Virus record (IMG/VR): IMGVR_UViG_3300020202_000147
Span: 1 to 40,729 of that record
Source: a virus
DNA: 40,729 nt
Direction: 5' to 3' (one strand)
Of the stretch, positions 3,408-33,345 are shown piece after piece; the stretch's first letter is position 1, and each line of letters starts with the position of its first letter. Both the position numbers and the translations under genes were made by a program. The notes below the pieces were generated by a model. It was not told the origin of the DNA and searched no databases. It saw only the letters and a program-made list of their open reading frames with translations.

Positions 3408-3477
3408 AGATGACGCCGTGTCTCTCGGCTTCTTGTTTGTCTTCGAATGTTTTTGGGCACCACTTACAGCGGTACAT
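3382..3477 (-). CDS. 31-residue C2HC zinc-finger microprotein
   Basis: The product is essentially one zinc finger: Cys4-x2-Cys7-x12-His20-x3-Cys24, with Tyr2 and Phe11 in the usual hydrophobic positions (YRCKWCPKTF). ATG 3477 lies within the end of the upstream gene, and the ORF overlaps the methyltransferase start by 26 nt. Spacing close to the classical C2H2 pattern makes chance unlikely. It may bind nucleic acid, but no target is visible. Confidence 0.6.
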   Translation of the reverse strand: MYRCKWCPKTFEDKQEAERHGVICGMEFERA

Positions 3478-3772
3478 CGTGACCAGCAACAGCCTGTTTC
3501 GTTTCAGCCCGATTTTCCTCACGCTTCACGGTTTCGATAAACAAAGGACCGTGCTTGTCGAAAATCGCAAGGCCGTGATTTAAAGCCTGAGCTTGTGGCC
3601 CAGTGACTTCGATTTCTTTCGCAGCCTTCAAAGCAGCCTTCAAATCTTTCCGTGACCAGTGGGCCCCAATCAGTATTCCTGGACCGCTTCTAAACGTGTG
3701 AATGTCACCTTTCGGTTTTAACATCTTCAAAGCTTGCTCATAAGATACGAAAACTCTCTCGTCTTTACTCAT
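3464..3772 (-). CDS. Conserved phage hypothetical protein
   Basis: The 102-residue protein has the pattern IHTFRSGPGILIGAHW...A.EIEVTGPQAQALNHGL...GPLFIET. I recognise this as a small conserved protein of many environmental phages, but it has no assigned function. It starts with an ATGA overlap (ATG 3772). The charged C-terminal tail lies over repeat copy B and may have been replaced by recombination. Confidence 0.7.
   Translation of the reverse strand: MSKDERVFVSYEQALKMLKPKGDIHTFRSGPGILIGAHWSRKDLKAALKAAKEIEVTGPQAQALNHGLAIFDKHGPLFIETVKREENRAETKQAVAGHDVPL
3467..3496. repeat. Dispersed imperfect repeat, copy B (short)
   Basis: The minus strand reads CAGGCTGTTGCTGGTCACG then ATGTACCGCTG. It matches the core of the copies at 2646-2707 and 39976-40036. 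Here the repeat spans the end of one ORF and the ATG of the zinc-finger microprotein, just as the 40-kb copy spans the junction of a secreted protein and a zinc-ribbon gene. Confidence 0.45.
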
Positions 3773-3939
3773 CTTAGCCTCTCCGCAATCAGCTCGAGAG
3801 CCTTTACCTTCCGCAACTCAAGATCATCGGCGCATTCGCAACTGTGTTCGCATATTTCAATTTGCCCAAATTCGTCCACCGCCCAAACCTCACCAGAGAA
3901 TAGGAGCGATAAAAACAATAAAGCCAGTTTTTGTTTCAT
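3769..3939 (-). CDS. Small secreted Cys-rich protein
   Basis: ATG 3939 overlaps the TGA of the upstream microprotein. The 56-residue product has a clear signal peptide, MKQKLALLFLSLLFSGEVWA, with cleavage after VWA. The mature part of about 36 residues contains CEHSCEC, a likely disulfide or metal-binding knot, followed by an amphipathic helix. It should act in the periplasm or envelope. Superinfection exclusion or lysis control is possible, but no family is recognised. Confidence 0.65.
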   Translation of the reverse strand: MKQKLALLFLSLLFSGEVWAVDEFGQIEICEHSCECADDLELRKVKALELIAERLR

Positions 3940-4007
3940 TGTCCTTCCTGCGCCGTCCAGATAACCGCAGCGAGCGTTACACCAATACAAATCCCTACTA
4001 ACAGCAT
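3936..4007 (-). CDS. 23-residue membrane microprotein
   Basis: The ORF is linked by a TGATG overlap upstream (ATG 4007 with GAGAGGG 7 nt before it) and an ATGA overlap downstream. The sequence is almost entirely one hydrophobic segment, MLLVGICIGVTLAAVIWTAQ. An ATG at 4013 is an alternative start. Its coupling to a secreted protein suggests an envelope role. Short length limits confidence. Confidence 0.45.
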   Translation of the reverse strand: MLLVGICIGVTLAAVIWTAQEGQ

Positions 4008-4165
4008 CAACATACCCTCTCCCATTCGTAAATAGATCCGCAGGCCAGACAGTGGATCTTGTTTTCGTATCTCTCCCAACCGTTAACGGACATTAAAATT
4101 CCGCAGCTCTCGCAGTCCTGGGGATGATCCCATTCGTTACCGAGACTTTTCCGGCTCATGTCCAT
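4007..4165 (-). CDS. Zinc-ribbon microprotein (52 residues)
   Basis: ATG 4165 overlaps the TAA of the zinc gene upstream as TAATG. The longer frame to 4273 would cover that gene entirely and is rejected. The motifs are CESCGILM and HCLACGSIY, about 20 residues apart, forming a classical zinc ribbon, with a C-terminal Cys. Two zinc proteins in a row suggests a paired function or a tandem capture. Confidence 0.6.
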   Translation of the reverse strand: MDMSRKSLGNEWDHPQDCESCGILMSVNGWERYENKIHCLACGSIYEWERVC

Positions 4166-4314
4166 TAGTACACGAACCTCAGTTCGACTTTTTTCTTCTT
4201 CGCGCACTTGGTACAAAGGCCGCTGGATGGTTTTGTGATCCAGTTCCGAATTTTTTTGCCGCATTTCCCACATTTGTAATCAAACGCCGATTTTTCGTTT
4301 TTAGCAGTTGGCAT
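4165..4314 (-). CDS. Zinc-ribbon microprotein (49 residues)
   Basis: It starts at ATG 4314 inside the end of the HNH gene and ends TAATG into the next zinc protein. The knuckles are YKCGKCGKKI (about residue 14) and GLCTKCAKKKK (about residue 34). The very basic tail is compatible with nucleic-acid binding. Not assigned to a family. Confidence 0.6.
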   Translation of the reverse strand: MPTAKNEKSAFDYKCGKCGKKIRNWITKPSSGLCTKCAKKKKVELRFVY

Positions 4315-4711
4315 CTTGTCCCCTCGCGATCTCGTTTAGTTTTTGAGATAAATCAGCGTACATTTTTTCGTGATAGCCCCTATCTTGCCAGGTTCTAAAA
4401 CAGGCCTTTTGTTTTGCGATCCTCCGAAGCTCCAAAAACCCGTCTTTTTCCCTGCCTTCAACCAGCTCGAAAACTTGCAATGCCACGTCTTTCTGCCCAA
4501 AGCTTTTGGCCGTGTGGCACGCCGAGCAAAGAATTGTCAGGTTCCTAATGTCGTAAAACAGTTGCTTGCAGGTCCTCGAAAAACAGTGATCAATTTGCAG
4601 GTTGTTAAACGATCCGCATAACTCACAGGTATCCCCACGTAACAACCGGACGATTTTTCTGAGTAGCTGCCAGTTCTTGTTGATCAACGTCTTGATGCTC
4701 GGGCGCTTCAT
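4301..4711 (-). CDS. HNH endonuclease-like protein
   Basis: The 136-residue protein has the HNH zinc-finger pattern: CELCG (about residue 30), the catalytic-type LQIDHCFSR (about residue 43), then NLTILCSACH (about residue 64). The C-terminal half is helical and charged. The spacing resembles the NinG/Rap group of lambdoid recombination nucleases. Position directly downstream of the helicase gene (ATGA overlap) supports a role in DNA replication or recombination rather than homing. Likely a metal-dependent nicking or structure-specific nuclease. Confidence 0.75.
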   Translation of the reverse strand: MKRPSIKTLINKNWQLLRKIVRLLRGDTCELCGSFNNLQIDHCFSRTCKQLFYDIRNLTILCSACHTAKSFGQKDVALQVFELVEGREKDGFLELRRIAKQKACFRTWQDRGYHEKMYADLSQKLNEIARGQDANC

Positions 4712-5586
4712 CGTCCAATCGCCAATTTCGCTTCGTAGCGGTTGTTGTAAAACCGGTATGTCTCGCCAGAGAAAAACAGCTCAAATGATCCAACCGGCCC
4801 GAACCTGTTCTTAGCTATCTGGATCTTGAAGTTGTTTCCCAGTTCCGTTGGTTCCTTTAGCTGGTGCATTAGGAGAACGTGATCGCTCATTTCCTCGATT
4901 GCACCGGTACCCTTCAGGTTGGCGATCGTTGGCGCGTCCTCTCCCTGCCTGTTAATTTGTGACAGAACTACAACCGCCATCTTGTGCCGCATTGCCACTT
5001 CTTTCAAAAACCGGAGGTAGTTAGTAAGACTTTCCCACTGCGTTTGTTTGCCCTCGGAGCGGATGTGCTGGATGTGGTCCAGGATTAAAACATCAGGTCT
5101 GAACTCTAGATGATCAATCAGTGTATAAAGCTCATTCTCGGTGTAGCAGTAATCGTCAATGATCCGGATAGGCAGATCTGCGATCTCGGCTACAAATCTG
5201 TTCATCTTGTGGTCTGTTTCCGGGTTCGTCCTGCCCATAATTAAATCAAAACCGTTCACGCCGAACTCGCTGCAAAACATCCGTTCAATGATCGTTTCTT
5301 TAGTCATCTCGAGACTTAAAAACGCGACCTTTTTTCTCATTTTTGCAATGTGAACCGCAGCCTGACAAACAAGCGTCGTTTTACCGATACCAGGCCGCGC
5401 GGCGATAGTCGTAAGCTGCGCTTTGTGCAGTCCGAAAATTCCCTTGTCTAGAACTTCCAGGCCTGTTTCGAAATCTGGCTTTCCGGTTCTGGATTTGACG
5501 TTTTCGACAAATCTTGTAAGCGTTTCTGCCAGTGGTTCAAACTTTGGATAGAATTTCTCAGGTTTTCGTCCGCCAATTTCAGGCAT
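4708..5586 (-). CDS. DnaB-type replicative helicase, RecA core only
   Basis: The 292-residue protein contains the DnaB C-terminal RecA-like ATPase: Walker A ARPGIGKT at residues 63-70, SLEM after strand 2, Walker B PDVLILDH at about 164-171, and VVVLSQINR at about 206-213. It should hydrolyse ATP to unwind DNA at the phage fork. The usual N-terminal helical domain of DnaB (about 100-150 residues) is missing; only about 40 residues precede the ATPase core. The preceding 105-residue gene overlaps it by 139 nt and may supply that role. The upstream gene is a replication-initiator-like protein. Confidence 0.9.
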   Translation of the reverse strand: MPEIGGRKPEKFYPKFEPLAETLTRFVENVKSRTGKPDFETGLEVLDKGIFGLHKAQLTTIAARPGIGKTTLVCQAAVHIAKMRKKVAFLSLEMTKETIIERMFCSEFGVNGFDLIMGRTNPETDHKMNRFVAEIADLPIRIIDDYCYTENELYTLIDHLEFRPDVLILDHIQHIRSEGKQTQWESLTNYLRFLKEVAMRHKMAVVVLSQINRQGEDAPTIANLKGTGAIEEMSDHVLLMHQLKEPTELGNNFKIQIAKNRFGPVGSFELFFSGETYRFYNNRYEAKLAIGR

Positions 5587-11692: not shown

Positions 11693-11719
11693 AAAAACCC
11701 CTTATTTTCCAAGGGTTTT
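11693..11719 (-). terminator. Terminator after integrase gene
   Basis: Minus strand AAAACCCTT, loop GGAAAAT, then AAGGGGTTTTT with one mismatch and a T run. It overlaps the integrase stop codon and separates integrase mRNA from the promoter of the RHH gene. Confidence 0.65.
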
Positions 11720-12623
11720 AAGCGTATTCCTGTTTTAGCTTGTCGATTTCTTTCTTGGTGTGCTCGAATGAAAGATGGGTATATTCTGCGGTCTGGTTGA
11801 TGTGGGCGTGCCCTGCCAGTTCCTTTACAACCGCTAAGGGAGCGCCAGCCTCGACCATTTCGGTTACGTAGCCGTGACGTTTTGCGTGCGGAAACGCCCT
11901 GACCCCCACGTCAAGGCCGCGCTCCCTGATCATTTTGTGGACTCTGTTTCCACTAAGCCTAACCCCGTCCTCCCTTGGGAAAAGGGGCATATGTGGTTCT
12001 GCCAACCCCTGCTCTTTTAGGAAGGATAGGTAGATCCTCATATATAAAGCGTTACTTCGAGAGATCGGAATCCACCTAAAACCGTCCCTTTTACCATGCT
12101 TTACGTGTATCCCCCGTCGTCCTGACCTGAAATCGACATCACCTACATTTAATGAAGTCAGTTCGGTCTTCCTTATACCCGAAGCTTCGAAAAGTATCAT
12201 AATTGCTACATCTCGTACGGTCATAAAGGGAGATGCCCAAAGTCTCTGCCAAAGCTCCTTCCTTATAACGGTCGGTTCTTTCTTGGGGCCCTTCCTATAT
12301 TTGAACCCCTCTGCCATCGGATTGTGAGGGATGATCTGCGCCCGGTGTTTCGCCCACCAGTAGAAGTCCTTCATATAGGTAAAGGCTTTGTATGTGGTAT
12401 TCCTGTCCCAAGGTTTCCGAACCCCCTTTTCGGCCGCGCGAAGAATCAGACCATGAATGGTGTTGTACTCCGGTATCCAGAGGATCTCCCCACCATGAAG
12501 CGCGTAGAGCGACTTTAACAGATAGACCTTATTCTCAATCGTCTTCCGCTTCAGGTTCAGATCGTTGGCGAGATAGTGCGCGTACTTTTCTAAAGTGTTT
12601 AGTTGTTCAGGCATGAGCCGCAT
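11718..12623 (-). CDS. int: Tyrosine recombinase (phage integrase)
   Basis: The protein has an N-terminal SAM-like core-binding domain (EKYAHYLANDLNLKRKT) and a catalytic domain with all expected residues: Arg in EASGIRKTEL (about 151), Lys in HVKHGKR, His-x-x-Arg in PHAKRHGYVT (about 246-249), His in ELAGHAH (about 272), and the Tyr nucleophile in TAEYTH (about 281). The frame is open to ATG 12683, but the predicted transcription start is only a few nt before that codon, so I prefer ATG 12623 (MRLMPEQLN). It should join attP near 10.98 kb to the 3-prime end of a host tRNA gene. Confidence 0.92.
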   Translation of the reverse strand: MRLMPEQLNTLEKYAHYLANDLNLKRKTIENKVYLLKSLYALHGGEILWIPEYNTIHGLILRAAEKGVRKPWDRNTTYKAFTYMKDFYWWAKHRAQIIPHNPMAEGFKYRKGPKKEPTVIRKELWQRLWASPFMTVRDVAIMILFEASGIRKTELTSLNVGDVDFRSGRRGIHVKHGKRDGFRWIPISRSNALYMRIYLSFLKEQGLAEPHMPLFPREDGVRLSGNRVHKMIRERGLDVGVRAFPHAKRHGYVTEMVEAGAPLAVVKELAGHAHINQTAEYTHLSFEHTKKEIDKLKQEYA

Positions 12624-12695
12624 ATTAATCCCAGATTTTAATTTTGTGGGGACAAAAATCCGGGTTTTAAAAGCAAGTGTCATGCCTGAATGCGA

Positions 12696-15036: not shown

Positions 15037-16431
15037 TTAAGTTATGGTTGCTGTTCTGCGTCTTGCTGCAGGAGCGGCACCACCTTCTGACGGTCTTAAT
15101 GCCACCTGATAACCGGCTGTGTCATCAGAAAGTGTCCAGGTAATCGTTTGATTTCCAGTGGCTCCTGCCGGAGCGATTTCCTTGTCAAATATGATCAAAT
15201 CACGATTTGCTGTATTGATCACTCGCTGGGTGTAGCCGTTACCTGGCCCAGCCGAAAGTGCAGAAGTCGAAGAGTCCACCGTCCCCATCACAAGACTAAA
15301 AGCGCCATCAGTCGCTGTTGTAAGAGAATCGCAATCAGAAACGCTGGAAGGGTCAACGTTGAAATTGTAAGTGGATGTTGTGTCCTCAACGGTTGTTGTG
15401 TTGACACCTGTATAGGTTGCTATAACAACTCCCCAAGCTCCTGAGCTGTTTGAAGTCCAAGCGTATGATGCTGGCTCTGAGCCGCCAGCAACTCGGTAAG
15501 CTACAAGCCCAACAAACACACCTGTTTCATTACGAAGTGAACCGATTGTGGTAAATGAGTTCGCGCCGTTGTTGTCAACTATTGAAGTGGCCGGATTGTT
15601 TGCGTAGACAAACGCAATCACGACATCACCAGATGTAACACCGGTAGGTTTTGTAATGCTGATTGCTGTTCCAGAGCTGCCTGTGGCGTTGCCTGTTCCG
15701 CTTGCCCTAACAGTAATCAGTGCTTTTTGAAACGTTGCCATCGTGGCACCGCTACGGGATACACCGTCCCCAGACCAAGTTGCAGTAACTGATGGAGTGC
15801 TCGTTGATGTAAGAACCCTAATAGCCGTACCGACAGCCTTGTAAGAGGCAGTTCCGGAGCCTTGTGTTTCATTCTGGATATTCGTAAACGAGTTATTGAC
15901 GCTAGAGATCGTGTCAGTATCACCACCGCCACCTGTAACACGATATCCCCACGCAGCGACAACCAATTCGTTGTTTTTGCTTGTTGTACCACTAGCGGTT
16001 ACCGCTTGTGTTGTAACTGTGTTTGTGTATGCGGTGGTGCCAGTCTTGTCCAGTGGGGATGGCCGCCAGGGCCCTTCGAATTCCCGGATTATTGTGGCGT
16101 GTTGATCAGCGGTATTCTGAGTAAAACCCCAAGTCGTTCCGTCTGCAGCCTGAACAACCCGATATCCGATGGCAGTTGAATCGGAGTTGGTTGTATCAGC
16201 GTTTTCAACCGCCTCTAGAAGCGTTCCGGCTACTACGAGATCAGTGTCGTCACCGGCAAAGCATGTTACTACGATCAAATTTCCAGCGGTTGGCGATCCA
16301 GCGAATGTCGCATTGACATTTGAACTACTAGGAGAATCGTTAACAGCTTCCTGAACAATATCCCCGAACGCCGCAAATGCAGTCTTATGCAGGCTCAGAA
16401 ACAGGATCAACAATAATAGGAGTTTCTTCAT
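15037..16431 (-). CDS. Secreted beta-rich fibre/adhesin-like protein with duplicated domain
   Basis: The 464-residue protein begins with a signal peptide, MKKLLLLLILFLSLHKTAFA. Two homologous beta-sandwich domains follow, about 22-235 and 237-450. Each has the order SPTAGNLIVV or GVTSGDVVIA, then GYRVVQAADGTTW or AYRVAGGSEPASY, then a FEG or YTG segment. The composition is Thr/Ser/Gly-rich with few charges, like exported adhesins and phage fibre knobs. It lies at the end of the tail module. It could be a receptor-binding component or a host-surface protein made by the phage. Confidence 0.65.
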   Translation of the reverse strand: MKKLLLLLILFLSLHKTAFAAFGDIVQEAVNDSPSSSNVNATFAGSPTAGNLIVVTCFAGDDTDLVVAGTLLEAVENADTTNSDSTAIGYRVVQAADGTTWGFTQNTADQHATIIREFEGPWRPSPLDKTGTTAYTNTVTTQAVTASGTTSKNNELVVAAWGYRVTGGGGDTDTISSVNNSFTNIQNETQGSGTASYKAVGTAIRVLTSTSTPSVTATWSGDGVSRSGATMATFQKALITVRASGTGNATGSSGTAISITKPTGVTSGDVVIAFVYANNPATSIVDNNGANSFTTIGSLRNETGVFVGLVAYRVAGGSEPASYAWTSNSSGAWGVVIATYTGVNTTTVEDTTSTYNFNVDPSSVSDCDSLTTATDGAFSLVMGTVDSSTSALSAGPGNGYTQRVINTANRDLIIFDKEIAPAGATGNQTITWTLSDDTAGYQVALRPSEGGAAPAARRRTATIT

Positions 16432-16885
16432 AGTCCCTTATAAAATTGCTTGGTTTGTCCCCGTAGGAAAACGCCCTAGCAGCAGCGTTAGCAATTGCGA
16501 AACTAGGTTCAATCTCTATAGCTTTACCATTCGCATCCCGGTACACATTTGGACATTCGATGCGCTCACTACGAATCCTTTCGTAAGTGTTGTCACCAAT
16601 CTCCACCTCGCCGGAATCCTCCAGTTCTTTTTGTCGTTCCGGATCACGAGTAATAAGTAAGACGTATTTTCGTTCGAGATAGCAGGAGGTTCCGTCGTCA
16701 GTTAGTTTCCAGCCTTTGGCAGAAAGCTCCTCAAGCACCGGATTAAGCGACTCTTTGCTTGAAGCGTCAGCGGATGGAAAATAGCTTTCTATGTTCTCAG
16801 AAATCTCGTTAGTAGCTTCAAGTGTTTCGTCAGCAGACGCGGCAGGAGAAATCAACAAAAGAAGGATAAGAATTAATCGTCCCAT
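16385..16885 (-). CDS. Secreted hypothetical protein
   Basis: ATG 16885 overlaps the end of the large fibre gene. MGRLILILLLLISPAASA is a signal peptide. The mature protein (about 148 residues) is acidic, with an alpha/beta central part (KGWKLTDDGTSCYLERKYVL), two Cys that may form a disulfide, and a C-terminal helical part. It overlaps the next gene by 47 nt. No family recognised. The flanking fibre genes suggest a periplasmic partner or chaperone, which is inference. Confidence 0.6.
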   Translation of the reverse strand: MGRLILILLLLISPAASADETLEATNEISENIESYFPSADASSKESLNPVLEELSAKGWKLTDDGTSCYLERKYVLLITRDPERQKELEDSGEVEIGDNTYERIRSERIECPNVYRDANGKAIEIEPSFAIANAAARAFSYGDKPSNFIRDYEETPIIVDPVSEPA

Positions 16886-19074
16886 GTACCCGTCCAGCAA
16901 ACGGAAAACCAAGTGGGGGTTCCGGAGACTGATGCGATATCCACATCAACACGATCTCCGGCAGCGATAGTTGCATCTCCGTCCAATGAAGTGTCTGTGT
17001 CTGGTGTCGAGATGCAGGCGAGATCAACAGAGTCCATATCAGCTGCAGTCCCGTCATCAACCTGCAACATCATATTGACTGTCTGATCTGACTCACACCA
17101 AAGTTTGGTTACTGTAAACCCGTTTGCCGTATCATTCACCCAAACGCTTTTATCATCGGTAGAAGCTGTCGGATCAACGGTGCGGTAGCATTTGGTATCT
17201 GTGTAAGTCTCGGCATCAGCCGCAACGTCGTTTGTTGAAAGCGTGAGACTTCTGCCAGCAGTTAGGGCTGTTTTACTAACAGAAATTGCCGCTGATGAGT
17301 TAATGTCTGCGTTCGTGATCGAATCGTCGGCGATTTCCCCACCCGTACCACCATCCACCGCACCGGCGGCGATTTCGTCGTCTTGAATGCCCAGGGCCTT
17401 AACAGAAACACCGCCGAAAGCTCCGACAGTAAAATTAGTGGTGTCAAACGAAGCAATGCCTGGTGTTGTCACAGTGGCAATGTCAGCAGAAACGATGGCT
17501 TTCCCTGCCACCGCACTTGATGCTTTTAATCCGGTGGTAAAATCAACCGTATCTGCGGAAACTACCTGAACACCGTCTTCTGACACGTTAATCGATCCGC
17601 CACCGGCAGAGGTTTGATCGGTGTAAGTGCAGTCAATTTCCGTGTTGGCTGAATCATAAGTACAAATTTTTGTGTCAGTTAACGTTCCTAAATCTGTGTT
17701 TTCAACCGCGCTCGCGCTATCTACTGTAATGTTGTTCGGAACCTGGGCATCCGTAACCGATCCTTGCAAGGCATCGAGATCGAGCACGCTTTCTAGTTCA
17801 GTCTCAACAGCCGCCTCGTCAAGATCCACAGATCCAAGCCCCGTACCGTCCACATCGCCTACGATATCGAGTGTGGACTCAAGTGTGGACTCGCCAGTTG
17901 CGTCAACCGCGTCGAGGCCATTAATCGTTCCAGTACCAGTAAGAGAGAGGGTTGGAGCAGATAGCGTTGTGGTTGTAAATGTTCCGGTGTTATCAAGGGA
18001 TGCAACGTCCGTAATCGCACCTCCAGCACGCACTCCAAATCCGATTGTTGAGGTGCTATTGGTTCCATTCATCGCGTTCCAGTATCCTGAGATCCTAAGA
18101 GCGCTTCTTCTCGTTCCGGCTTCATCTTCTGCGTCTAAAATAATCCCGGCTCCGAACCCTGCGGCAACGGTGCCTGTGGACATATGAACGTAACGGAGGA
18201 CTGACGTAATGGAATTTGTTGCAGAATCTTCAATTTCAGCCTGGAACTTTGAAAGCGGAGAAGTACAACCAACACAAAGTCTGTCGTTTGTGTCGTCCCA
18301 GAAAAGATTGGCGTTATCCTGCGTAATCAGACCAGAGGTTGTGACGTAAGGAATTGAACCAAGTGTCAGGTCAGATAATTTAAGTCCGGAGAGTGTCGGC
18401 CCGGTGCCGAACACGGCCAACCCGGTTCCCGTTTCATCCGAAAGCGCTGCAGCTAGACCTGCGGAGTTGGAAAGGTCTTCTTCGTAATCAGTGCACGACT
18501 CCACCGCGCCAGAAGCATCCACGCCAAGCGGAGCATTGCCAGCGGCACAATTTGCGCCATTCGCTGCTAAAGCCGTTGCTGTAGTCGCTGCACCGCCCTC
18601 AGATGCACTTCCGGCGTAGTTTCCCGTAGTCTCAGTGCCGAGCGTCACACCATCGTCTTTGATAGAAACAGTCCCACCGGCGGTAACGCCGAAATTATTA
18701 GAATCAAAAGATGCAATGCCTGGGGTTGTGGTGGTTGCAAAATCAGTTGAGACAACCGCCTTCCCTGACGCTGACGTGGTAACCGTGAGACCACTGGTAA
18801 AATTAATCGTGTCCGCACTGGTAACATGAACGCCGTCATTAGAGACCCGAACCGTCCCACCGCTCCCACCGGCCGCCGTATCATCATCCTGGCACGTCCA
18901 CACACCCGAGCCTTGAGATTTAAGGACTTTCCCAGACGCGCAGTTAATGGTTATGTCAGACTCCGACTCCGCACCGACATAATCCGGTTTGCTTGTGAAC
19001 GGATTAAATTTCTTCGCTGCATAGACATTGGAACACAGAGCCAAAAACAAAAGAACAAGAAACGCTTTTTTCAT
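16873..19074 (-). CDS. Large signal-peptide tail-fibre-like protein
   Basis: The 733-residue protein begins MKKAFLVLLFLALCSNVYA, with cleavage before AKKFNPFTSKPDYVG, a motif I have seen at the start of many environmental phage fibres. It is Ser/Thr/Gly/Asp-rich and repetitive. A unit of about 70 residues (GTVRVSNDGVHV...TPGIASFD) at 73-142 recurs at about 489-560 (INVSEDGVQV...TPGIASFD). Asp-rich passages such as TLDIVGDVDGTGLGSVDLDE resemble fibre shaft repeats. The C-terminal 110 residues form a Cys-containing beta domain like that of the 28.4-kb fibre. Probable receptor-binding fibre, unusual in having a Sec signal. Confidence 0.7.
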   Translation of the reverse strand: MKKAFLVLLFLALCSNVYAAKKFNPFTSKPDYVGAESESDITINCASGKVLKSQGSGVWTCQDDDTAAGGSGGTVRVSNDGVHVTSADTINFTSGLTVTTSASGKAVVSTDFATTTTPGIASFDSNNFGVTAGGTVSIKDDGVTLGTETTGNYAGSASEGGAATTATALAANGANCAAGNAPLGVDASGAVESCTDYEEDLSNSAGLAAALSDETGTGLAVFGTGPTLSGLKLSDLTLGSIPYVTTSGLITQDNANLFWDDTNDRLCVGCTSPLSKFQAEIEDSATNSITSVLRYVHMSTGTVAAGFGAGIILDAEDEAGTRRSALRISGYWNAMNGTNSTSTIGFGVRAGGAITDVASLDNTGTFTTTTLSAPTLSLTGTGTINGLDAVDATGESTLESTLDIVGDVDGTGLGSVDLDEAAVETELESVLDLDALQGSVTDAQVPNNITVDSASAVENTDLGTLTDTKICTYDSANTEIDCTYTDQTSAGGGSINVSEDGVQVVSADTVDFTTGLKASSAVAGKAIVSADIATVTTPGIASFDTTNFTVGAFGGVSVKALGIQDDEIAAGAVDGGTGGEIADDSITNADINSSAAISVSKTALTAGRSLTLSTNDVAADAETYTDTKCYRTVDPTASTDDKSVWVNDTANGFTVTKLWCESDQTVNMMLQVDDGTAADMDSVDLACISTPDTDTSLDGDATIAAGDRVDVDIASVSGTPTWFSVCWTGTWDD

Positions 19075-21854: not shown

Positions 21855-22018
21855 CGCTTTCCACTCTTCGGACTCTCGAAGCTCAATATTCATTAATACG
21901 TCATCTGCGAAACTCACTCAATCACCGCTTTCCTAACATTCCTATCGTTTTAAAGATTGTCCCCACAAACTGAAATTTCCGTTGTAGCATGTTCGCCATC
22001 TCAAATTTTGGAGGAAAC

Positions 22019-22438
22019 ATGAAAACGTTTCTGATTTTAATTACGCTATTTTGCATAACAAGCAATAGCTTCGCACAATCTGATTTTGCCGAGGCTACTG
22101 GCGAAATGGCTGATCGTGCGATGCGTTTGAGACAGATAGAACTTCAAGAGCAGCAAATGATGAACAACGCCAGACTTGCCCAGATGCAACAAATAGCGCA
22201 AATCAATGAGCAAGAGGCACAAGCGCAAATAGATGCTCAACAAAGAGCTAACACAATGGCGTTTCTTGATGCTCATCCAGATATTGTTTTCCGCTCTCCA
22301 GAATATAATCAAATCGCAGATCTTGTTGAGCTCGGATATGATCCTGAAGACGCTTACAAAATCGTCGTTAATAGAAGATCCCAAAAAAAGCCTTCTCTGG
22401 ACGAAATATGGGAACAAACACATCCAACTATTTCTTAG
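22019..22438 (+). CDS. Plus-strand secreted protein with virion-protein motifs
   Basis: ATG 22019 has a perfect GGAGG site 5 nt upstream. The 139-residue protein has a signal peptide MKTFLILITLFCITSNSFA. Its mature start SDFAEATGEMADRAMRLRQIE resembles the N-terminus of the convergent gene (SFADVTGDLANRAFQLRQLR). A Gln-rich coiled coil follows (MQQIAQINEQEAQAQIDAQQ). It ends KKPSLDEIWEQTHP, like the PSLDDLFxATRP repeats of the internal virion protein. It looks like a chimaera of phage morphogenesis segments behind a signal peptide. Its 3-prime end overlaps the convergent gene by 11 nt. Confidence 0.7.
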   Translation: MKTFLILITLFCITSNSFAQSDFAEATGEMADRAMRLRQIELQEQQMMNNARLAQMQQIAQINEQEAQAQIDAQQRANTMAFLDAHPDIVFRSPEYNQIADLVELGYDPEDAYKIVVNRRSQKKPSLDEIWEQTHPTIS

Positions 22439-23390
22439 ATTCAAGGTATTGCATAATGGTAGCATCATCTGCCCCATGCGCCTTAGCTGCTGAATAAAAA
22501 GCCTCTTCACCAATAGCCCATTCGGGAACATTAGCGCTTTGACGTTGCTCCTGTTTGTACCCTTCACGGCCTCGCGTTCGAACATTTCTCCTGTAAGCGT
22601 CATAAAAACTTTCTAACTCTTCTAGCGCCGGGTATAAAGCTTCTGGGTTGCTAGTAAAGCCTCCCAAGTAATCATTGGCTAGACGCTCGTATTCTTCAGG
22701 CCGCGTCGTTACGCCTGATTGCACAAGTAGCTTTGCCGCGATAGCTCCACCAAGCCACCGCCTTAAATTTTGAGCTTCAGCGCTAAGTGGCAGCTTTTTT
22801 CCCATAAAGCCTTTTTGCTCAAACGCAAGATCGCGTCTAAAAGATTTTGACGTTCCGTCAGGAAAAAGAGTCTGTCTCGCTTTTGGAATATTAATAAGCG
22901 CCTCTTCAGCAAGCGTGTCTTTTCCAGATTCACTGGTCGGAACACCTTTAGCCTCCTGCTTGATCCGTTCAATCTCGGCCAAGCTCTTTGTATCTACATA
23001 TTCCTTCGGCATTCCATAGGCGTCATATTTCGTAGTTAGAGAATTATCCGGCGGCTTCCCGGACTGATTTTTCATTCGGTTCACTTTTGCTTCAGCCAGA
23101 TCTGCTTGAGCTAATGAGCGCCTAGTATCAGCCTGGCTTTTTTGATAAGTTTGGCTGAGGGATGGATCGTAATCAACCGAAAGAGTTCTTTGGGTTTCGC
23201 CGGGTAAAAGTCCGAACAATCTTCTAGGACCGTGCGTTTCTTGAGGGGTTATTGTTACACCTTTTGTTTTCAGCTCTGCTTCTTTAAGTGTTCGGTCATA
23301 AAGATTCTGATCTTCCTGATTTCTTAATTGCCGAAGTTGAAATGCCCTATTAGCTAAATCTCCGGTTACATCCGCAAATGATCTTCCCAT
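22428..23390 (-). CDS. Putative internal virion protein
   Basis: The 320-residue hydrophilic helical protein begins MGRSFADVTGDLANRAFQLR and has a coiled-coil N-terminal third. A Ser/Thr linker and a globular helical C-terminus follow (AQNLRRWLGGAIAAKLLVQS; NPEALYPALEELESFYDAYR). It is in line with the 266-residue glycine-zipper protein and the 568-residue protein, as for podovirus ejection proteins. It ends 11 nt inside the convergent plus-strand gene. No family recognised. Confidence 0.6.
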   Translation of the reverse strand: MGRSFADVTGDLANRAFQLRQLRNQEDQNLYDRTLKEAELKTKGVTITPQETHGPRRLFGLLPGETQRTLSVDYDPSLSQTYQKSQADTRRSLAQADLAEAKVNRMKNQSGKPPDNSLTTKYDAYGMPKEYVDTKSLAEIERIKQEAKGVPTSESGKDTLAEEALINIPKARQTLFPDGTSKSFRRDLAFEQKGFMGKKLPLSAEAQNLRRWLGGAIAAKLLVQSGVTTRPEEYERLANDYLGGFTSNPEALYPALEELESFYDAYRRNVRTRGREGYKQEQRQSANVPEWAIGEEAFYSAAKAHGADDATIMQYLESKK

Positions 23391-23394
23391 TATC

Positions 23395-24195
23395 TCACCT
23401 AGTAAAGTTTTTACTTGCGTTCATAAACGCAATGAAAGTTGGGTCTTTTTTCATGTTAGTACTATCGCTAAAGCTTTTTCCGGGAACGCTGATTCTTGGG
23501 TCGTAGGTGGGCGCTTGAGGCGTTTGATTTATCTTTGGGCTCTTTAGCGCTTGTTGTGTAAAGTAAGCATTTCCACCACCGGCTAATGCCGACGCCATTG
23601 GATCTTCATAAGCATCCGCCTCCTGCATCTGAAGACCGCGTCTTGAGAGTTCGTTTCCGCTCTCTGTCCTAAAAACATCCAGATCGAAGTTCGCTGCCTC
23701 GTTCTCCTGCCCGAAATTAAACGTATTAAGATCCTGCAGTCGCGCGGTGTTCGTGTCCCGTTCTTCATTCCGACGGGCTAAATCCTCAATATCAATTCTG
23801 TTGGTGTATAAGTTCTTTTCCCGACCGGCTTCTCTGAGTGCACGACCGATCACTTCGTCATAAGCCGCTGCGTTTCTGGAAAGCCCCATACCGGACAGAC
23901 GGTTGTTTAAATCAGCCTTCGTATCTTCAAGATCCCGGTCTTGCTCGATCTCGAAGTTCTTCAACAAAGCATCACGCCGGGCCGGGTCATAACCAACACC
24001 CTGACCCTGGGCGCGTTCCATCGTGATCTTGGTAATCAGGTCTTCGACAGGCCTTAAATGCTGAGTATGAGGAGGACGATACCCGGAGTATTTGGGCATC
24101 GCATCCGACACGCCCTTCATTTTTTTGTTCTTGGCTTTAGCGCCCATGTATCCGCCGAGCGCGCCGCCAGCAGCTAATAATGCAAGTCCGAGCAT
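23395..24195 (-). CDS. Putative internal virion/ejection protein with glycine zipper
   Basis: The 266-residue protein starts MLGLALLAAGGALGGYMGAK, a glycine-zipper membrane helix seen at the N-terminus of many podovirus internal proteins. A basic loop (KAKNKKMKG) and long helical, Arg/Asp/Asn-rich coiled regions follow, with a disordered C-terminus. The ATG has an AAAGGAGG site. Family resemblance suggests a P22 gp7-type ejection protein that helps DNA cross the envelope, but I see no direct homology. Confidence 0.65.
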   Translation of the reverse strand: MLGLALLAAGGALGGYMGAKAKNKKMKGVSDAMPKYSGYRPPHTQHLRPVEDLITKITMERAQGQGVGYDPARRDALLKNFEIEQDRDLEDTKADLNNRLSGMGLSRNAAAYDEVIGRALREAGREKNLYTNRIDIEDLARRNEERDTNTARLQDLNTFNFGQENEAANFDLDVFRTESGNELSRRGLQMQEADAYEDPMASALAGGGNAYFTQQALKSPKINQTPQAPTYDPRISVPGKSFSDSTNMKKDPTFIAFMNASKNFTR

Positions 24196-26102: not shown

Positions 26103-27660
26103 GTTTTTTCCTTCGGTCAGGTTCGACATCGTATCGGATAGATCGAAAAGACATTTTTTGATTAACGTTATAATTGCTGAGCCTAAACTGCACCGAGTCA
26201 GAAACAAGATCCACGAGGTGCATCTGATCCGTCGAAGACTCGAAGTCCGCCGGGTCACTATCAAGATCAATCGCTTCTAAAGGATAGTTCTCGCCTTCCA
26301 TGTACTGCTGGTAAGTCAGAAACGCTTCATTTTCGTAACCTTTCAAGACTTCAATATCAAACGACCACGATCCTTCGTTCGGAGTATCCACATACAGGTT
26401 CGAGTATTTCTTGAACCAGGACACGTCCAGCTTTGAGCCTTTGTATTCCTCTTCGGTTCTAAGGCCTGTCATTAAAACGGTGGGGATTAAACTTCCGTCA
26501 TCTTGCATCTCGGTTGAATACTGCGTCCTGTAATCCGCGACTTTAAAAACCCTTGCTCCGTCCGTGTGTTTCCTGGCGAATAAATGCTCACCTTTGAATT
26601 TCGTGGAACTCAGAGCCACTGACGCGCTAAATCCGTATGTGTGCGGCCCGTAGATACATGGCGAACCGGTGTCTTTGTTGACATTGATCGTGTCGAAATG
26701 AAGCGTGTAGTCGTTTTCCATCGACGCATCGATCGCAACCGAAAGCTTGTACAGATTGTCAACGTGCTCGGCGCAGGCGTCTTTTACTTTGGCAGGGTTA
26801 ATTCGTCTTAGGAATGGTTCAACATCGTAGGAAATAAGTCTTACTTTTGAACCGTCAAACGCATAAACCCCGATCTCGTTTTCCGGGGAATAACCGAGGA
26901 ACCAAAGTTCATCACCGACCTTTTTGACCGTCTGAGGAGCAACGCACCCACCCTGGAAACTCATCTGCTCCGGCCGCCAGTTTGACGGAGAACCGATGAT
27001 GTAATAAACCCAGATTGAGTTAGTTCTGAGGATCACCAAGCGCCCGTTCATGATCATCAACTTTTCAGGAACGTCACCGCGAGCCGGAGGCTGTGTGTCT
27101 ACGTTGATCGCCGCCCAACGGATCGGAACACCGCCCATGTCTGCCAGGTCATCTGTCCAAACCAGTTCGTTATTCGCCGTGATCCCGAAGGCTCGGTTGG
27201 TTTCTTTGGCGATAATGATGTCTTTTAGGAGAATTGACTCTCCGGAGGTATTTGTAATCAGTCGTTTCACCACCGATATCCCGTCATATTCAAAAAACCC
27301 GTCTTTCGGGTTCGCAAAGTACGTCTTATCCCGTAAATTCGCGGCCTGTTTAATGACGCCAGGCGTCAACCCGGTCAAAAGCTCCGTAAATTCATTCGCA
27401 CCAAAATTCTTTTTCATGATCTTGTCATCCACGCACACTAAGACATCTTGTTTGTCTTCGTTGTCGTTGTAATTGACAAAAATCCCGGTCGGAGCGTTCG
27501 TCCCGATCGTGTCCCCGTGATACCGGACTGATCCTTTGATCTGTTCAAAGACTTCCTGGTGCGTCATATCCACGTTCTGCATTAAAAAGAACTGGTTCTC
27601 GGGTGTGTCGTATGCCTTAAGTCTTAAATTAACGCCGCCTTTCGGTCTGATCTCTGGCAT
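26080..27660 (-). CDS. Tail nozzle/tubular-like protein
   Basis: The 526-residue protein (MPEIRPKGGVNLRLKAYDTP...) has repeated beta-strands with AxxRDKTYFANPKDGFFEYD, ELVWTDDLADMGGVP and NGRLVILRTNSIWVYYI segments. The repeat pattern suggests a beta-propeller, as in the gp10-type tail hub/nozzle of P22-like phages and T7 gp12. It has no signal peptide, unlike its neighbours, in keeping with assembly inside the cell. The assignment is from pattern and gene order. Confidence 0.65.
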   Translation of the reverse strand: MPEIRPKGGVNLRLKAYDTPENQFFLMQNVDMTHQEVFEQIKGSVRYHGDTIGTNAPTGIFVNYNDNEDKQDVLVCVDDKIMKKNFGANEFTELLTGLTPGVIKQAANLRDKTYFANPKDGFFEYDGISVVKRLITNTSGESILLKDIIIAKETNRAFGITANNELVWTDDLADMGGVPIRWAAINVDTQPPARGDVPEKLMIMNGRLVILRTNSIWVYYIIGSPSNWRPEQMSFQGGCVAPQTVKKVGDELWFLGYSPENEIGVYAFDGSKVRLISYDVEPFLRRINPAKVKDACAEHVDNLYKLSVAIDASMENDYTLHFDTINVNKDTGSPCIYGPHTYGFSASVALSSTKFKGEHLFARKHTDGARVFKVADYRTQYSTEMQDDGSLIPTVLMTGLRTEEEYKGSKLDVSWFKKYSNLYVDTPNEGSWSFDIEVLKGYENEAFLTYQQYMEGENYPLEAIDLDSDPADFESSTDQMHLVDLVSDSVQFRLSNYNVNQKMSFRSIRYDVEPDRRKKHAKIVSI

Positions 27661-28439
27661 TAGTTCCCACCGCCCATCAAAACCACTCTCCGGCGCACCG
27701 CATCACAATCCGTATACGCTGAGGACGGGCCGCCTGACGGTGGCACGATCGCAACACCTTTAACAATTCTGTATTCGTCTAACCAGCCATGCATCGGAAG
27801 CGCACCGGTGTCGCCACGACCTCCAATGCCGATAGCTCCGGTTTTGTTTGAGACAGCCGAAGCGTCTGTGGCTGTTGATCCGATCTGGGCACCGTCAACG
27901 TACATCTTGAAATCGTTCCCGGTTCTTAAAAGCGTAACGTGATACCAAACATCAATCGAAGGACTCCATGCATTTGAAACGGCAATTACGTTTGACCCGG
28001 CATCCTGAACTGTAAAATCAAGAGTTCCGGCTGCATTCCAAAAGAAAACGATTTCGTTCGTCGCATCCTGTCTTTGGTACAGAAACGACCGGCTGGCAGA
28101 CACGTCCGCGAAATACACCCAAAAATCGATCGTGAAGGCTCCGGTGTCGAAGTGAATGTCATCCGTGTCCGCAAACGATAACCAGTCCCCTGTACCGTCA
28201 AACTTTCCTGATGCGCCACCGAACTGACTCTTAGCGGTGTCTATCTGGGCATGCCCGTTCGCTGTGATCGACTTCGCGCCATTGTCCGAGTCTGTAAACG
28301 TCGTAGATTCATCCGTGCCGTCCATGTGCAGCATCAAGGACGTGTCGTCAACGTCATAACAAGACGTGGTGCTCGCAGCAAAACACAGCGCTGGCGAGAT
28401 AAGGATCAGAGTTAAAAGACTAAGTGTTTTATTCAGCAT
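27660..28439 (-). CDS. Secreted LamG/concanavalin-A-like lectin domain protein
   Basis: After a signal peptide (MLNKTLSLLTLILISPALCF), one jelly-roll LamG_3-type domain covers most of the 259 residues. Its hallmarks are DDTSLMLHMDGTDESTTFTD, KFDGTGDWLSFADTDD, FTIDFWVYF, WYHVTLLRTGNDFKMYVDG and GWLDEYRIVKG. This fold binds glycans and is common in phage tail fibres and adhesins. The start overlaps the fibre gene upstream by 11 nt. It probably helps bind host surface sugars. Confidence 0.75.
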   Translation of the reverse strand: MLNKTLSLLTLILISPALCFAASTTSCYDVDDTSLMLHMDGTDESTTFTDSDNGAKSITANGHAQIDTAKSQFGGASGKFDGTGDWLSFADTDDIHFDTGAFTIDFWVYFADVSASRSFLYQRQDATNEIVFFWNAAGTLDFTVQDAGSNVIAVSNAWSPSIDVWYHVTLLRTGNDFKMYVDGAQIGSTATDASAVSNKTGAIGIGGRGDTGALPMHGWLDEYRIVKGVAIVPPSGGPSSAYTDCDAVRRRVVLMGGGN

Positions 28440-29487
28440 CGATTGTGTAGTTGATTTTTACCTGTACGCCCGTAACCGTCCCCGTGACTGCCCCACCGTC
28501 GATTGCAATGTAATCTCCTGCATCGATCGTGGGATTTGTAAGGCTTCCGTCATCGGCTGCGCCGGTGTTACCGCAGGTAATTGTGGTGTCAACGGTTGAA
28601 CAGTTATCTCCGTTCCCGTCGCACTCCTGGACATCAATCACCGCAGACTCACCCGTTCCTGCCGGATCAACGATACAGGTAATACTTGTGATCGTGATCG
28701 GGTCAGCGACTTTATCCACATAAATCAAATCTGTGGCTGCCGGGCTTTCGTAGTAAATGGGATAGCTTTTCTTGTAGGTCACGACTCGTTTACTTGCACC
28801 GTAATACGCGAACTGGTCGTCTGATGTATCCACCGCAACTTCACCAGCTGCGTCAACGGTTGGCCCTGTTCCGCTTGGGATGGCTAATGACGATGTAGTA
28901 ATTGTGCTACCAGTGATCGTTGCGTTTCCGCTCACCCGGAGCGTGCTGTGAATGTGCGTTGTTACCGCAGACACCGCATCCGCTGAGGCGTTTACAAACA
29001 CCGCGTTTGCGCTCGAGCGAAGAACTCCGCCCGATTTAACGTGCACCGCATCAAACGATGCTTTTGACATCACGACGTTTCCGCTCGCGGTTAAGGTTGT
29101 GCTGACACTCACTGTGTTGGCAGATACAACGATCCCGTCTGGTAGAACGAACGTGTTGTCTGACGAAACGCCAAGTCTTACTCTCTGGCCGGAGGTTGTT
29201 AGCCAAGCCAAATACTGGTCGTTCCCAATATTCACGACATCTTTTGAGCTCACAACGTTCCGGGTGCTTAACACACCGCCGGAGTTAAACGACGCGTAAT
29301 TAACTGTTCCGCCAAGGATCGTGACGCCGTAAAGGTTCGTCAACGTGTCCGACTGAAGAACCTGCGTTGCTTCGAGCGAGGTTCTGACGATCGTTTCATT
29401 GGAAGAAACAACACCAGATCCGGTTTCTGTTTCCCACGCAAACGCGTTTGAGCTTAAAAGCAAAAGAATGGCTAGAATTTTCTTCAT
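28429..29487 (-). CDS. Secreted tail-fibre-like protein
   Basis: ATG 29487 overlaps the O-antigen-ligase-like stop (ATGA). The signal peptide is MKKILAILLLLSSNAFA. A Ser/Thr/Val-rich shaft with repeats follows (VVSANTVSVSTTLTASGNVV; AVSAVTTHIHSTLRVSGNAT). The C-terminal Cys-containing beta domain (ITITSITCIVDPAGTGESAV; DAGDYIAIDGGAVTGTVTGV) resembles the end of the 733-residue protein. A role as fibre or surface adhesin is likely. Export by Sec is the oddity. Confidence 0.65.
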   Translation of the reverse strand: MKKILAILLLLSSNAFAWETETGSGVVSSNETIVRTSLEATQVLQSDTLTNLYGVTILGGTVNYASFNSGGVLSTRNVVSSKDVVNIGNDQYLAWLTTSGQRVRLGVSSDNTFVLPDGIVVSANTVSVSTTLTASGNVVMSKASFDAVHVKSGGVLRSSANAVFVNASADAVSAVTTHIHSTLRVSGNATITGSTITTSSLAIPSGTGPTVDAAGEVAVDTSDDQFAYYGASKRVVTYKKSYPIYYESPAATDLIYVDKVADPITITSITCIVDPAGTGESAVIDVQECDGNGDNCSTVDTTITCGNTGAADDGSLTNPTIDAGDYIAIDGGAVTGTVTGVQVKINYTIDAE

Positions 29488-30593
29488 GAATAGTCCTCTT
29501 GTAATAAAGCCTCGACGCAAGCGAGCATGTAACAGGCAAGCCCGGCGAACCGCCCTAGATGAAATGGAAAATGGAATAAGGAAACGACCACTAACGGGAT
29601 AAGAATAGAAATCGCCATCCGGTGTCGATGAAACGTCAGATCAATCCGCGACCAGATGTTTTTAAAATAACAGTAAAGAAGAACAAGCCCGATAATCCCG
29701 GCCTCAAAGATCCACTGGATGAATTCGTTATGAGCCCAGGTCCAGGTCTGCGGCTGGCCGTTCTCCTGAAGTGTGGTAAATCCTGTGACCGCCCATGACC
29801 CGAGCCCCATCCCGAACCAGGGTTTTGACCCTGCGATATAGTTGATCCCTGCAAACCAGATATTGAAGCGTTTCGGGAACTGCCCGGACGGCATATCGAT
29901 TTTCAGGATGTAAAACACCCCGGCTGCGACCGCTGCGATGAACACAGCCCAGAATATTTTTTTGTTCTTGTGCCACAACAGAAACAGAAGCGAAGCGATC
30001 AAGGCCACCACCGCCGTTGACGACTTCCCGAACCACAACAAAGGAATGCAGATGATTGCGTTGAACGGATTGGCTGCGAAGATGAACGGGAACGCCATCG
30101 CCGCCAGACAACCGAGGTTTGCTTTCAGGCCCATAAACCCAACCTGATCCGGCTCCGGCATGTTCTGGGGCATGGAACTTTTGAAAATAGGATCAATGTT
30201 GTGGATCTGCAGAGCTAACCAGATCACGTTCAGGGCGCAAAATAATGCGAGTAAATTCCCGATCGCTTTAAAATCTAAATCAACTCTCTCGGCCAGTTCT
30301 TTGATCAGCGCAACGCCGAGGAAAAAGTTAAGAAGTTTTAGTCTTGAGTTCGGAGTGAAATGAAACAGAACTGTATTTAAAATGACGTAGGCTAAAATCA
30401 AGGCAAGGTAGAAGTTCGTGAACGGGCGCGTTCTCGGAACGAACAAACACACCGCCAAAAACCCCATAACCCCGTACTGGAAGAACATCTCCTGCGGTGC
30501 GTAGAAATGCAGACCAGGAATATAGAACGTTGTGCATCCGATCAGAAAGAATTTGAGGTAAGTATCGAAGGAGATCCTTTGGATGGCGCTCAA
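29484..30593 (-). CDS. O-antigen ligase/polymerase-like membrane protein (Wzy_C family)
   Basis: The 369-residue protein has about ten hydrophobic segments. It also has the long periplasmic loop typical of Wzy/WaaL, with WFGMGLGSWAVTG (about residue 260) and WAHNEFIQWIFEAGIIGLVL (about 287). The latter is the conserved H-N-x-x-x-Q-x-x-x-E-x-G-x-x-G-L signature of Wzy_C enzymes that ligate or polymerise undecaprenyl-linked O-antigen. Upstream and downstream genes are coupled by 4-nt overlaps, so it is a proper operon member between neck and fibre genes. It probably alters the host surface polysaccharide. Substrate is unknown. Confidence 0.85.
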   Translation of the reverse strand: MSAIQRISFDTYLKFFLIGCTTFYIPGLHFYAPQEMFFQYGVMGFLAVCLFVPRTRPFTNFYLALILAYVILNTVLFHFTPNSRLKLLNFFLGVALIKELAERVDLDFKAIGNLLALFCALNVIWLALQIHNIDPIFKSSMPQNMPEPDQVGFMGLKANLGCLAAMAFPFIFAANPFNAIICIPLLWFGKSSTAVVALIASLLFLLWHKNKKIFWAVFIAAVAAGVFYILKIDMPSGQFPKRFNIWFAGINYIAGSKPWFGMGLGSWAVTGFTTLQENGQPQTWTWAHNEFIQWIFEAGIIGLVLLYCYFKNIWSRIDLTFHRHRMAISILIPLVVVSLFHFPFHLGRFAGLACYMLACVEALLQEDYS

Positions 30594-31773: not shown

Positions 31774-31796
31774 GCCGGGGGCTGTGAACCCCCGGC
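31774..31796 (-). terminator. Rho-independent terminator after the capsid cluster
   Basis: Perfect arms GCCGGGGG/CCCCCGGC with a seven-base loop, then TTTCTT on the minus strand. It lies 7 nt beyond the stop of the secreted decoration-like gene and would reduce transcription into the neck gene, giving high capsid expression. Confidence 0.8.
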
Positions 31797-31802
31797 AATC
31801 CG

Positions 31803-32312
31803 TTAGACAATCGTGATATAAGCAAGCGATGTGTCTTCACCGTTACCAGAAGCAGCGGTGGTTTCGAGAGCGAAACCAAGCTGATTGATGGTGTTGGAAG
31901 TCACAAGCGAAGCATCACCTGACGTGCTGACGAACAGAGCATTACCAGAAGTAACTGTCTCTGTGGTCTTAATGCCGACATAGCCTTTGCCGCGAACAAT
32001 CGCCATTCCTGTATTTCCGGAGGCAATCGTTGTTTGAGCAACACCAGCGACACGCACACCATCTGCCGAAGCGGAAGAAACGCGAACCTGGAACGCGCCG
32101 TAATCTGCATCATGAGCGGTGTTGTTCACATCAAACACAAGCACCGTTCCCTGAGACACAAGCGTTGTTTCGTTCGAGGCTACGCGAACTGTCACCCAGC
32201 AATCATCCGACGAACCTTCCACGTTTCTGCCTTCCGCGCACTGAAGAGCAAATGCGTTAGAAGCAGAAACAAGGAGGATCGCAAACAAGAAAACTAAATG
32301 TTTAAGTTTCAT
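31803..32312 (-). CDS. Secreted decoration-like protein
   Basis: Located directly after the capsid gene with AAGGAGG before ATG 32312. The N-terminus MKLKHLVFLFAILLVSASNA followed by FA is a Sec signal, and the mature protein starts LQCAEGRNV. Repeated beta segments (VRVASNETTLVSQGTVLVFD; GVAQTTIASGNTGMAIVRGK; GYVGIKTTETVTSGNALFVS) resemble the beta-tulip DUF2190-type decoration proteins that stud HK97-fold capsids. The position is the standard one for a decoration protein. A signal peptide on such a protein is unexpected. It may instead coat the cell surface. Confidence 0.6.
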   Translation of the reverse strand: MKLKHLVFLFAILLVSASNAFALQCAEGRNVEGSSDDCWVTVRVASNETTLVSQGTVLVFDVNNTAHDADYGAFQVRVSSASADGVRVAGVAQTTIASGNTGMAIVRGKGYVGIKTTETVTSGNALFVSTSGDASLVTSNTINQLGFALETTAASGNGEDTSLAYITIV

Positions 32313-32325
32313 AGATCCTCCTTCC

Positions 32326-33345
32326 TTAGAAGCCAGCGCCGGTATAAACCGACTGGAATTTGGGGCCAGACAAGCAGAACTGACCCATGATTAGAGTTTT
32401 TGCCACTTCCTGGAACACGTCATAAGCTTCAATAAAATCCCCGATTTTAAAGTTCGCATCTTTCAGAGCTTTAAATTTGAGGAATTTGGTATTAAGAGCG
32501 TATAAATGACCAGAGGCAACGTTATCGCCCCACGCGACACGGCAATCTGCCATGTACATCAGGTGCGGATAACCAACCTTGGCATCTTTTCCACCCGAGT
32601 CCGCAAAACGCTCGTTCGCTTGCAGCGAAATCTGGAAAGCATCCCAGATCGTGCGAGTCGTGAGCATCAGGTTCGGACGGTTCATGCCGAAGGATGCGCC
32701 GTTATAGACATCCTGAACAACCTGACGACCGGCGTTGTTGGTATTCCATGCCGTCGCTGAAGCAATCGAAGTCGTGACAACACGGCTGCGTGCTTTTGTG
32801 TAGGTTGTTTTGGAAACGCCTGTTCCCGGAATATCCTGCGTTGCGGTATCAGGAACTAAGTCCCGAAGCCCTAACCATCCAAACTGGCTGCCTTGATCGC
32901 TTGCGCTGGCAGCGCCGTTTAATTGGTTAGATCCGCAAAGATAGATGTCCAGTGCGTTGTGAATAGATTCTTTTGTTTGCTCAACCTTTGACTTCAAGAG
33001 ACTAACTGCTTTCGCTTCACCAGCGTTTAAAGCCAGGTCAGTCGTGTAAAGATGCGTTGTGCCGTAAAAAATCGCCGGGCTATAAAGAAACGCATCAATA
33101 CCTTCTTGTTCGTCAACGTTAAGAACTGCACCACGTCGTGTACCGCCAACCGCTGCAGAGTCACCAATAATTGCAGGTTCATTAAATTCACGGCCGCCAT
33201 CCTCAACTTCAAGCATTCCGCCTTTGTCTTTGATCTCAGACAAAAGGGCGTTGTTTTGGACGATGCTGGATTTAATGTTCCCGGCAATCTTCTCTTTGGT
33301 TACGGCCCACAACGCGCGTAATGAGTTATCTGTGGGTTTTCCCAT
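32326..33345 (-). CDS. Major capsid protein
   Basis: The 339-residue protein has an N-terminal helix (NSLRALWAVTKEKIAGNIKS), FNEPAIIGDSAAVGGTRRGA, PAIFYGTTHLYTTDLALNAG and GMNRPNLMLTTRTIWDAFQI. These are typical of an HK97-fold coat protein of the group with no cleaved N-domain. It sits between scaffold and decoration genes, and the terminator beyond suggests abundant expression. It should form the icosahedral shell. The family is assigned by context and shape. Confidence 0.8.
   Translation of the reverse strand: MGKPTDNSLRALWAVTKEKIAGNIKSSIVQNNALLSEIKDKGGMLEVEDGGREFNEPAIIGDSAAVGGTRRGAVLNVDEQEGIDAFLYSPAIFYGTTHLYTTDLALNAGEAKAVSLLKSKVEQTKESIHNALDIYLCGSNQLNGAASASDQGSQFGWLGLRDLVPDTATQDIPGTGVSKTTYTKARSRVVTTSIASATAWNTNNAGRQVVQDVYNGASFGMNRPNLMLTTRTIWDAFQISLQANERFADSGGKDAKVGYPHLMYMADCRVAWGDNVASGHLYALNTKFLKFKALKDANFKIGDFIEAYDVFQEVAKTLIMGQFCLSGPKFQSVYTGAGF

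Follow-up and report, generated by a model that had tools for sequence, protein, structure and literature searches.

The cytoplasm is generally assumed to be where structural proteins of tailed phages fold and assemble. The closest described counterparts of the protein studied here belong to the Pfam family PF09956 (Phage_cement_2), which we take to be the renamed DUF2190, in agreement with the annotation of Microcystis phage MinS1. Our protein is encoded in the window, by which we mean the whole 40,729-nucleotide stretch of viral DNA analysed (IMG/VR record IMGVR_UViG_3300020202_000147). By sequence comparison it was found to carry a leader with a conserved cleavage site and conserved cysteines, to match the PF09956 family and to be linked to the capsid gene. 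PF09956 proteins of Arthrobacter phages Molivia, Amigo and TripleJ and of MinS1 match the same profile over their core and also have head genes as neighbours. However, the seven PF09956/DUF2190-type proteins that we compared, a small set from mostly actinobacterial phages, have neither a leader nor an N-terminal cysteine loop; the domain starts at residue 10-15 in the full matches among them but at residue 49 in the window protein, and their genes precede the capsid gene, whereas the window gene follows it.

Two other kinds of described protein occupy a comparable place or role. In Myxococcus phage Mx9, p82 ("putative major virion structural protein") is encoded in the same slot, directly after a homologous capsid gene, but unlike the window protein it has no leader, and no sequence relation between the two is detectable. 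Decoration proteins of the lambda gpD type would share a role in stabilising the capsid from outside; however, the Pfam and PHROG matches of the window proteins included no gpD family. Sec signal peptides have been described on genes of Porphyromonas gingivalis phages, including capsid genes, where the capsid leaders were attributed to a prohead protease, the remaining ones conforming to the Bacteroidetes Q rule (PMC10367356). In contrast, position +1 is occupied by L, F or I in the proteins studied here, and Pfam and PHROG searches of head genes recognised no protease. We found no clear precedent for exported decoration or fibre proteins in the literature, of which subscription journals were thinly covered.

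The gene, its orthologs and the capsid gene

The features at and around the gene are as follows, all on the minus strand.

32326..33345, minus: major capsid gene, without leader (phrog_9953, E 4.6e-27)
32317..32323, minus: Shine-Dalgarno sequence AAGGAGG, 4 nt 5' of the ATG
31803..32312, minus: decoration/cement-like gene with leader, 169 aa
32247..32312, minus: Sec signal peptide, residues 1-22, predicted cleavage after AFA
32199..32240, minus: loop between C25 and C38, predicted disulfide, both cysteines conserved in 7/7
31806..32246, minus: mature part, PF09956-like across residues 49-157 (21.7 bits)
31774..31796, minus: terminator-like hairpin 3' of the decoration-like gene, 10-bp stem with 8 G-C pairs, followed by TTTCTT

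We confirmed the minus-strand open reading frame 32312-31803 in the window. Its start lies 13 bp past the stop codon of the capsid gene, and the terminator-like hairpin begins 6 nt beyond its end, which bears out the earlier placement of the gene, made from the sequence alone, downstream of the capsid and before a terminator. Read by eye, all seven orthologs have a GC-rich hairpin beyond the stop codon; these hairpins are unrelated in sequence, and those of L004 and L009 have a weak T-tract. Apart from the ATG, the GTG at codon 31 alone among the early in-frame starts has a Shine-Dalgarno-like sequence upstream; we rejected it because it is not conserved, residue 31 being I, S or Y in some orthologs. 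The start that includes the putative signal peptide, with AAGGAGG in front of it, is thus upheld.

Besides the window copy, we identified six orthologs in IMG/VR contigs (L002, L003, L004, L009, L012 and L014; about 45-63% identity), all of them uncultivated; two additional scans yielded no further orthologs, and tblastn found no relatives of the protein among deposited phages. A search of the genome contig collection with the decoration and capsid profiles yielded no host. As is the case for PF09956 members, the gene lies among head genes in the window and five relatives, and in these 6 of the 7 records it directly follows the capsid gene on the same strand. The linkage was counted as 6/7 because the decoration gene of L009 departs from this arrangement: the segment L009:3-1298 is inverted relative to the window, so that the decoration and capsid genes are convergent, probably through misassembly or rearrangement. 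Likewise, in L002:2966-4129 the connector and ligase genes are flipped relative to the window, again a probable misassembly or rearrangement.

Leader, cysteine pair and mature part

The leader with its predicted cut site reads MKLKHLVFLFAILLVSASNAFA|LQC and is of the Sec/signal-peptidase-I type. It consists of an n-region with K2 and K4, a 9-residue core with a mean Kyte-Doolittle value of 3.5, and the segment ASNAFA|LQC; under our own heuristic scoring rule, which was used for all leader calls instead of SignalP, the protein shows a positive n-region, a hydrophobic core, an AxA site and no further transmembrane segment. A comparable leader score arose with a frequency of 5e-5 in 20,000 shuffles of the protein's own letters under the same rule. 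Among the orthologs, AFA at -3 to -1 is invariant in 7/7 while its codons vary synonymously, and the hydrophobic leader ending in AFA is kept in all of them, the start of the L009 leader being lost at the contig end. Identity in the leader outside AFA averages only 26%, versus 53% in the mature part (seven orthologs). Since AFA stays invariant despite codon changes while the remaining leader drifts, selection appears to act on a signal-peptidase-I site, not on a capsid-binding helix. We rejected a lipoprotein (signal peptidase II) because the cysteine sits at +3, directly after Q, T or N in every ortholog, and there is no lipobox. The sequence-only reading, which had described the first 22 residues as a classical signal peptide ending in ASNAFA, is therefore well founded, the leader being a textbook one, and the leader-bearing protein is very probably exported.

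C25 and C38 are the only cysteine columns in the alignment of the mature part, and both are invariant in 7/7, whereas the alignment of the capsid proteins contains no invariant cysteine column. A conserved pair so close behind the predicted cut agrees with export and oxidation of the protein, with a putative disulfide. The pair went unremarked in the sequence-only reading, as did the Pfam cement match and the numerous other late genes with leaders.

These observations bear on the alternative that the hydrophobic N-terminus does not export the protein at all, being either retained or cut by a phage prohead protease and acting on the capsid in the cytoplasm. The explanation given for the capsid signal peptides of the Porphyromonas phages, cleavage by the prohead protease, speaks for it (PMC10367356). 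However, the invariant AFA, the presence of charged, hydrophobic and polar parts in the leaders of all orthologs, the paired cysteines in the mature protein, the lack of a recognised protease noted above and the occurrence of like leaders on unrelated fibre-like proteins (next section) make this quite improbable. Thus, of the two possibilities raised by the sequence-only reading, an exported product and a role of the hydrophobic N-terminus on the capsid, the former is favoured and the latter is not, given that neither the AxA cleavage site nor the cysteine pair varies.

As to the identity of the mature part, PF09956 is the top family for 5 of the 7 orthologs, with scores of 28.4 (L004), 27.3 (L009), 24.0 (L002), 22.5 (L014) and 21.7 bits (window). 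Relative to the curated cut-off of 24 bits, the first three reach it and the last two fall just under it; L003 and L012 gave no PF09956 match in the Pfam profile scan. The scores are low, yet they are in range, as five comparison proteins (from four phages in which they bear a DUF2190 or head-decoration annotation, or their tblastn relatives) scored 19.8-61.9 bits in the same scan. The head decoration family phrog_122 is a weak second witness from PHROG. Alignment by hhalign against seven DUF2190/decoration proteins gave a plausible register that was not significant, a PDB sequence search with the protein returned no match, and AlphaFold models built from 4 full-length and 7 mature sequences had pLDDT values of 34 and 36. 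The proposed DUF2190-type identity is thus supported by sequence: the match is weak but recurs among the orthologs, three of which reach the cut-off, the window copy lying just below it.

The weak PF09956 scores, the two orthologs that lack a match, the non-significant hhalign result and the empty PDB search speak for the alternative that the mature part is an unrelated beta-rich exported protein that lies after the capsid gene by chance. We consider this quite improbable, as five orthologs match PF09956 before any other family, three of them at or above the cut-off, the gene is where a decoration gene is expected, and phrog_122 agrees.

Leaders on other late genes

Leaders were also called on other late genes of the window, which are listed here together with two further genes, for an O-antigen-ligase-like protein and an integrase.

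29484-30593, minus: O-antigen-ligase-like (Wzy_C) membrane protein, within the late cluster (E 6.3e-15)
28429..29487, minus: repeat-rich late protein, leader MKKILAILLLLSSNAFA, kept in the L003 ortholog
27660..28439, minus: LamG/concanavalin-like protein with leader (PF13385, E 9.7e-20); leader and two cysteines kept in L003
24732..26102, minus: tail-fibre-like protein with leader (phrog_11355 tail fiber, E 6.5e-12); leader kept in L003 and L012
24349..24735, minus: 128-aa protein with leader, kept in L003 and L012
16873..19074, minus: 733-aa fibre-like protein with leader (heuristic scan)
16385-16885: short ORF with leader, weak start signal
15037..16431, minus: 464-aa late protein with leader (heuristic scan)
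11718-12683, minus: tyrosine integrase (PF00589, E 7.5e-23)

The 733-aa and 464-aa proteins have no Pfam or PHROG match; a weak PF09956-like stretch (14.4 bits) lies inside the former at 18751-18945 on the minus strand. Leaders are absent in the window from the terminase, portal, scaffold, capsid, 388-aa connector-like and head-closure proteins, and also from the long 320- and 568-aa proteins, and the glycine-rich hydrophobic start of a 266-aa protein (23395-24195) is more like a membrane segment than a leader.

The same heuristic scan also called many leaders among the late genes in the two long relatives. Among cultured phages with homologous capsids, BUCT555 and Mx9 have no strong leader and ppBjS10J-1 has one doubtful ORF. 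A Fisher test on the leader counts gave p 4e-4, a value that is indicative only, as it rests on heuristic counts of script-called ORFs, several of which in G005 resemble plain membrane anchors. The C-terminal domain of the tail-fibre-like protein also occurs in cultured phages such as Octadecabacter DB virus 2 and HMO-2011, in proteins without leaders. The presence of leaders on most candidate surface or fibre proteins suggests that part of the virus coat leaves the cytoplasm instead of assembling there.

Two side observations concern the distribution of leaders. In a contig of a different phage (L035, 51.7 kb), two adjacent late ORFs at 3466-5324 bear leaders, and one of them shares the four-cysteine C-terminal domain of the repeat-rich protein; the trait may therefore be wider than this phage group. 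In the window, a lone plus-strand gene at 21989-22438 has a leader followed by AEATGEMADRAMRLRQ, which resembles the start of its opposite-strand neighbour 22428-23390 (ADVTGDLANRAFQLRQ), as if it were an inverted, leader-bearing partial paralog of the latter.

L003 and L012 also have the Wzy_C ligase-like gene, and L002 has it in inverted orientation; it may change the surface sugars of the host, in lysogeny or in the lytic cycle. The phage, bearing an integrase, may be temperate; no provirus of it was found in the genome collection.

The neighbouring ligase-like gene makes envelope modification plausible. In the main rival explanation, the decoration gene has been repurposed to encode a secreted non-virion protein that acts in or on the host envelope, alongside the O-antigen-ligase-like protein and the rest of the exported late proteins, and alters the cell surface, for example by hindering superinfection or re-adsorption of progeny. 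A leader alone suffices for export, the ligase-like gene belongs to this late cluster, and Sec-signal genes of the Porphyromonas phages have been interpreted as envelope modifiers (PMC10367356). Against this, the gene has kept its link to the capsid gene and is followed by a terminator, an arrangement in line with expression at capsid-like levels; a second decoration gene was not found; and the homologue of a tail fibre, a virion part in other phages, has a leader as well. We hold this explanation to be rather unlikely. Accordingly, repurposing away from the virion, as had been suggested from the sequence alone, is not borne out by a gene that has remained linked to the capsid gene and has no rival as decoration candidate among the genes found.

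Proposed addition of exported proteins to the virion

The tie to the capsid gene, the position of the terminator and the failure to find a second decoration candidate point to a virion role, and from these we infer attachment of the decoration-like protein to the virion. To the reading that a decoration protein of the cement type has been adapted for export, is oxidised in the periplasm and joins the particle late, we give about an even chance. The leaders kept across relatives on the fibre, LamG, repeat-rich and 128-aa proteins, and their absence from core head genes and from BUCT555 and Mx9, also speak for it; the low family scores and the two orthologs without a Pfam match speak against it. 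In this scheme, a cement protein of the PF09956 kind would carry a cleavable Sec signal peptide and a short cysteine loop; the precursor would cross the host inner membrane, signal peptidase I would cut after AFA, and the C25-C38 disulfide would form in the periplasm. The terminase, portal, scaffold, capsid, connector-like and head-closure proteins would remain cytoplasmic. Because heads form in the cytoplasm, contact with the capsid would have to wait for lysis, and late addition is a required step, the cytoplasmic capsid and the periplasmic protein being separated until then; we found no precedent for such a step, which weighs against the scheme. When the inner membrane opens at lysis, the waiting mature protein would bind the outside of the capsid, and candidate fibres and further surface proteins of the phage group would be exported in the same way.

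Extended to the whole particle, this would amount to a virion of two compartments, with the core head and connector made in the cytoplasm and the decoration and fibres exported by the host Sec system, given their disulfides in the periplasm and joined to the particle at lysis, a generalisation that we put forward tentatively, at somewhat less than even odds. If the leader-bearing decoration and fibre proteins are parts of the virion, then a portion of a tailed virion would be made in the oxidising periplasm; otherwise, genes linked to the capsid gene would have been turned into genes for proteins that act on the envelope. Either outcome would alter the annotation of such late genes.
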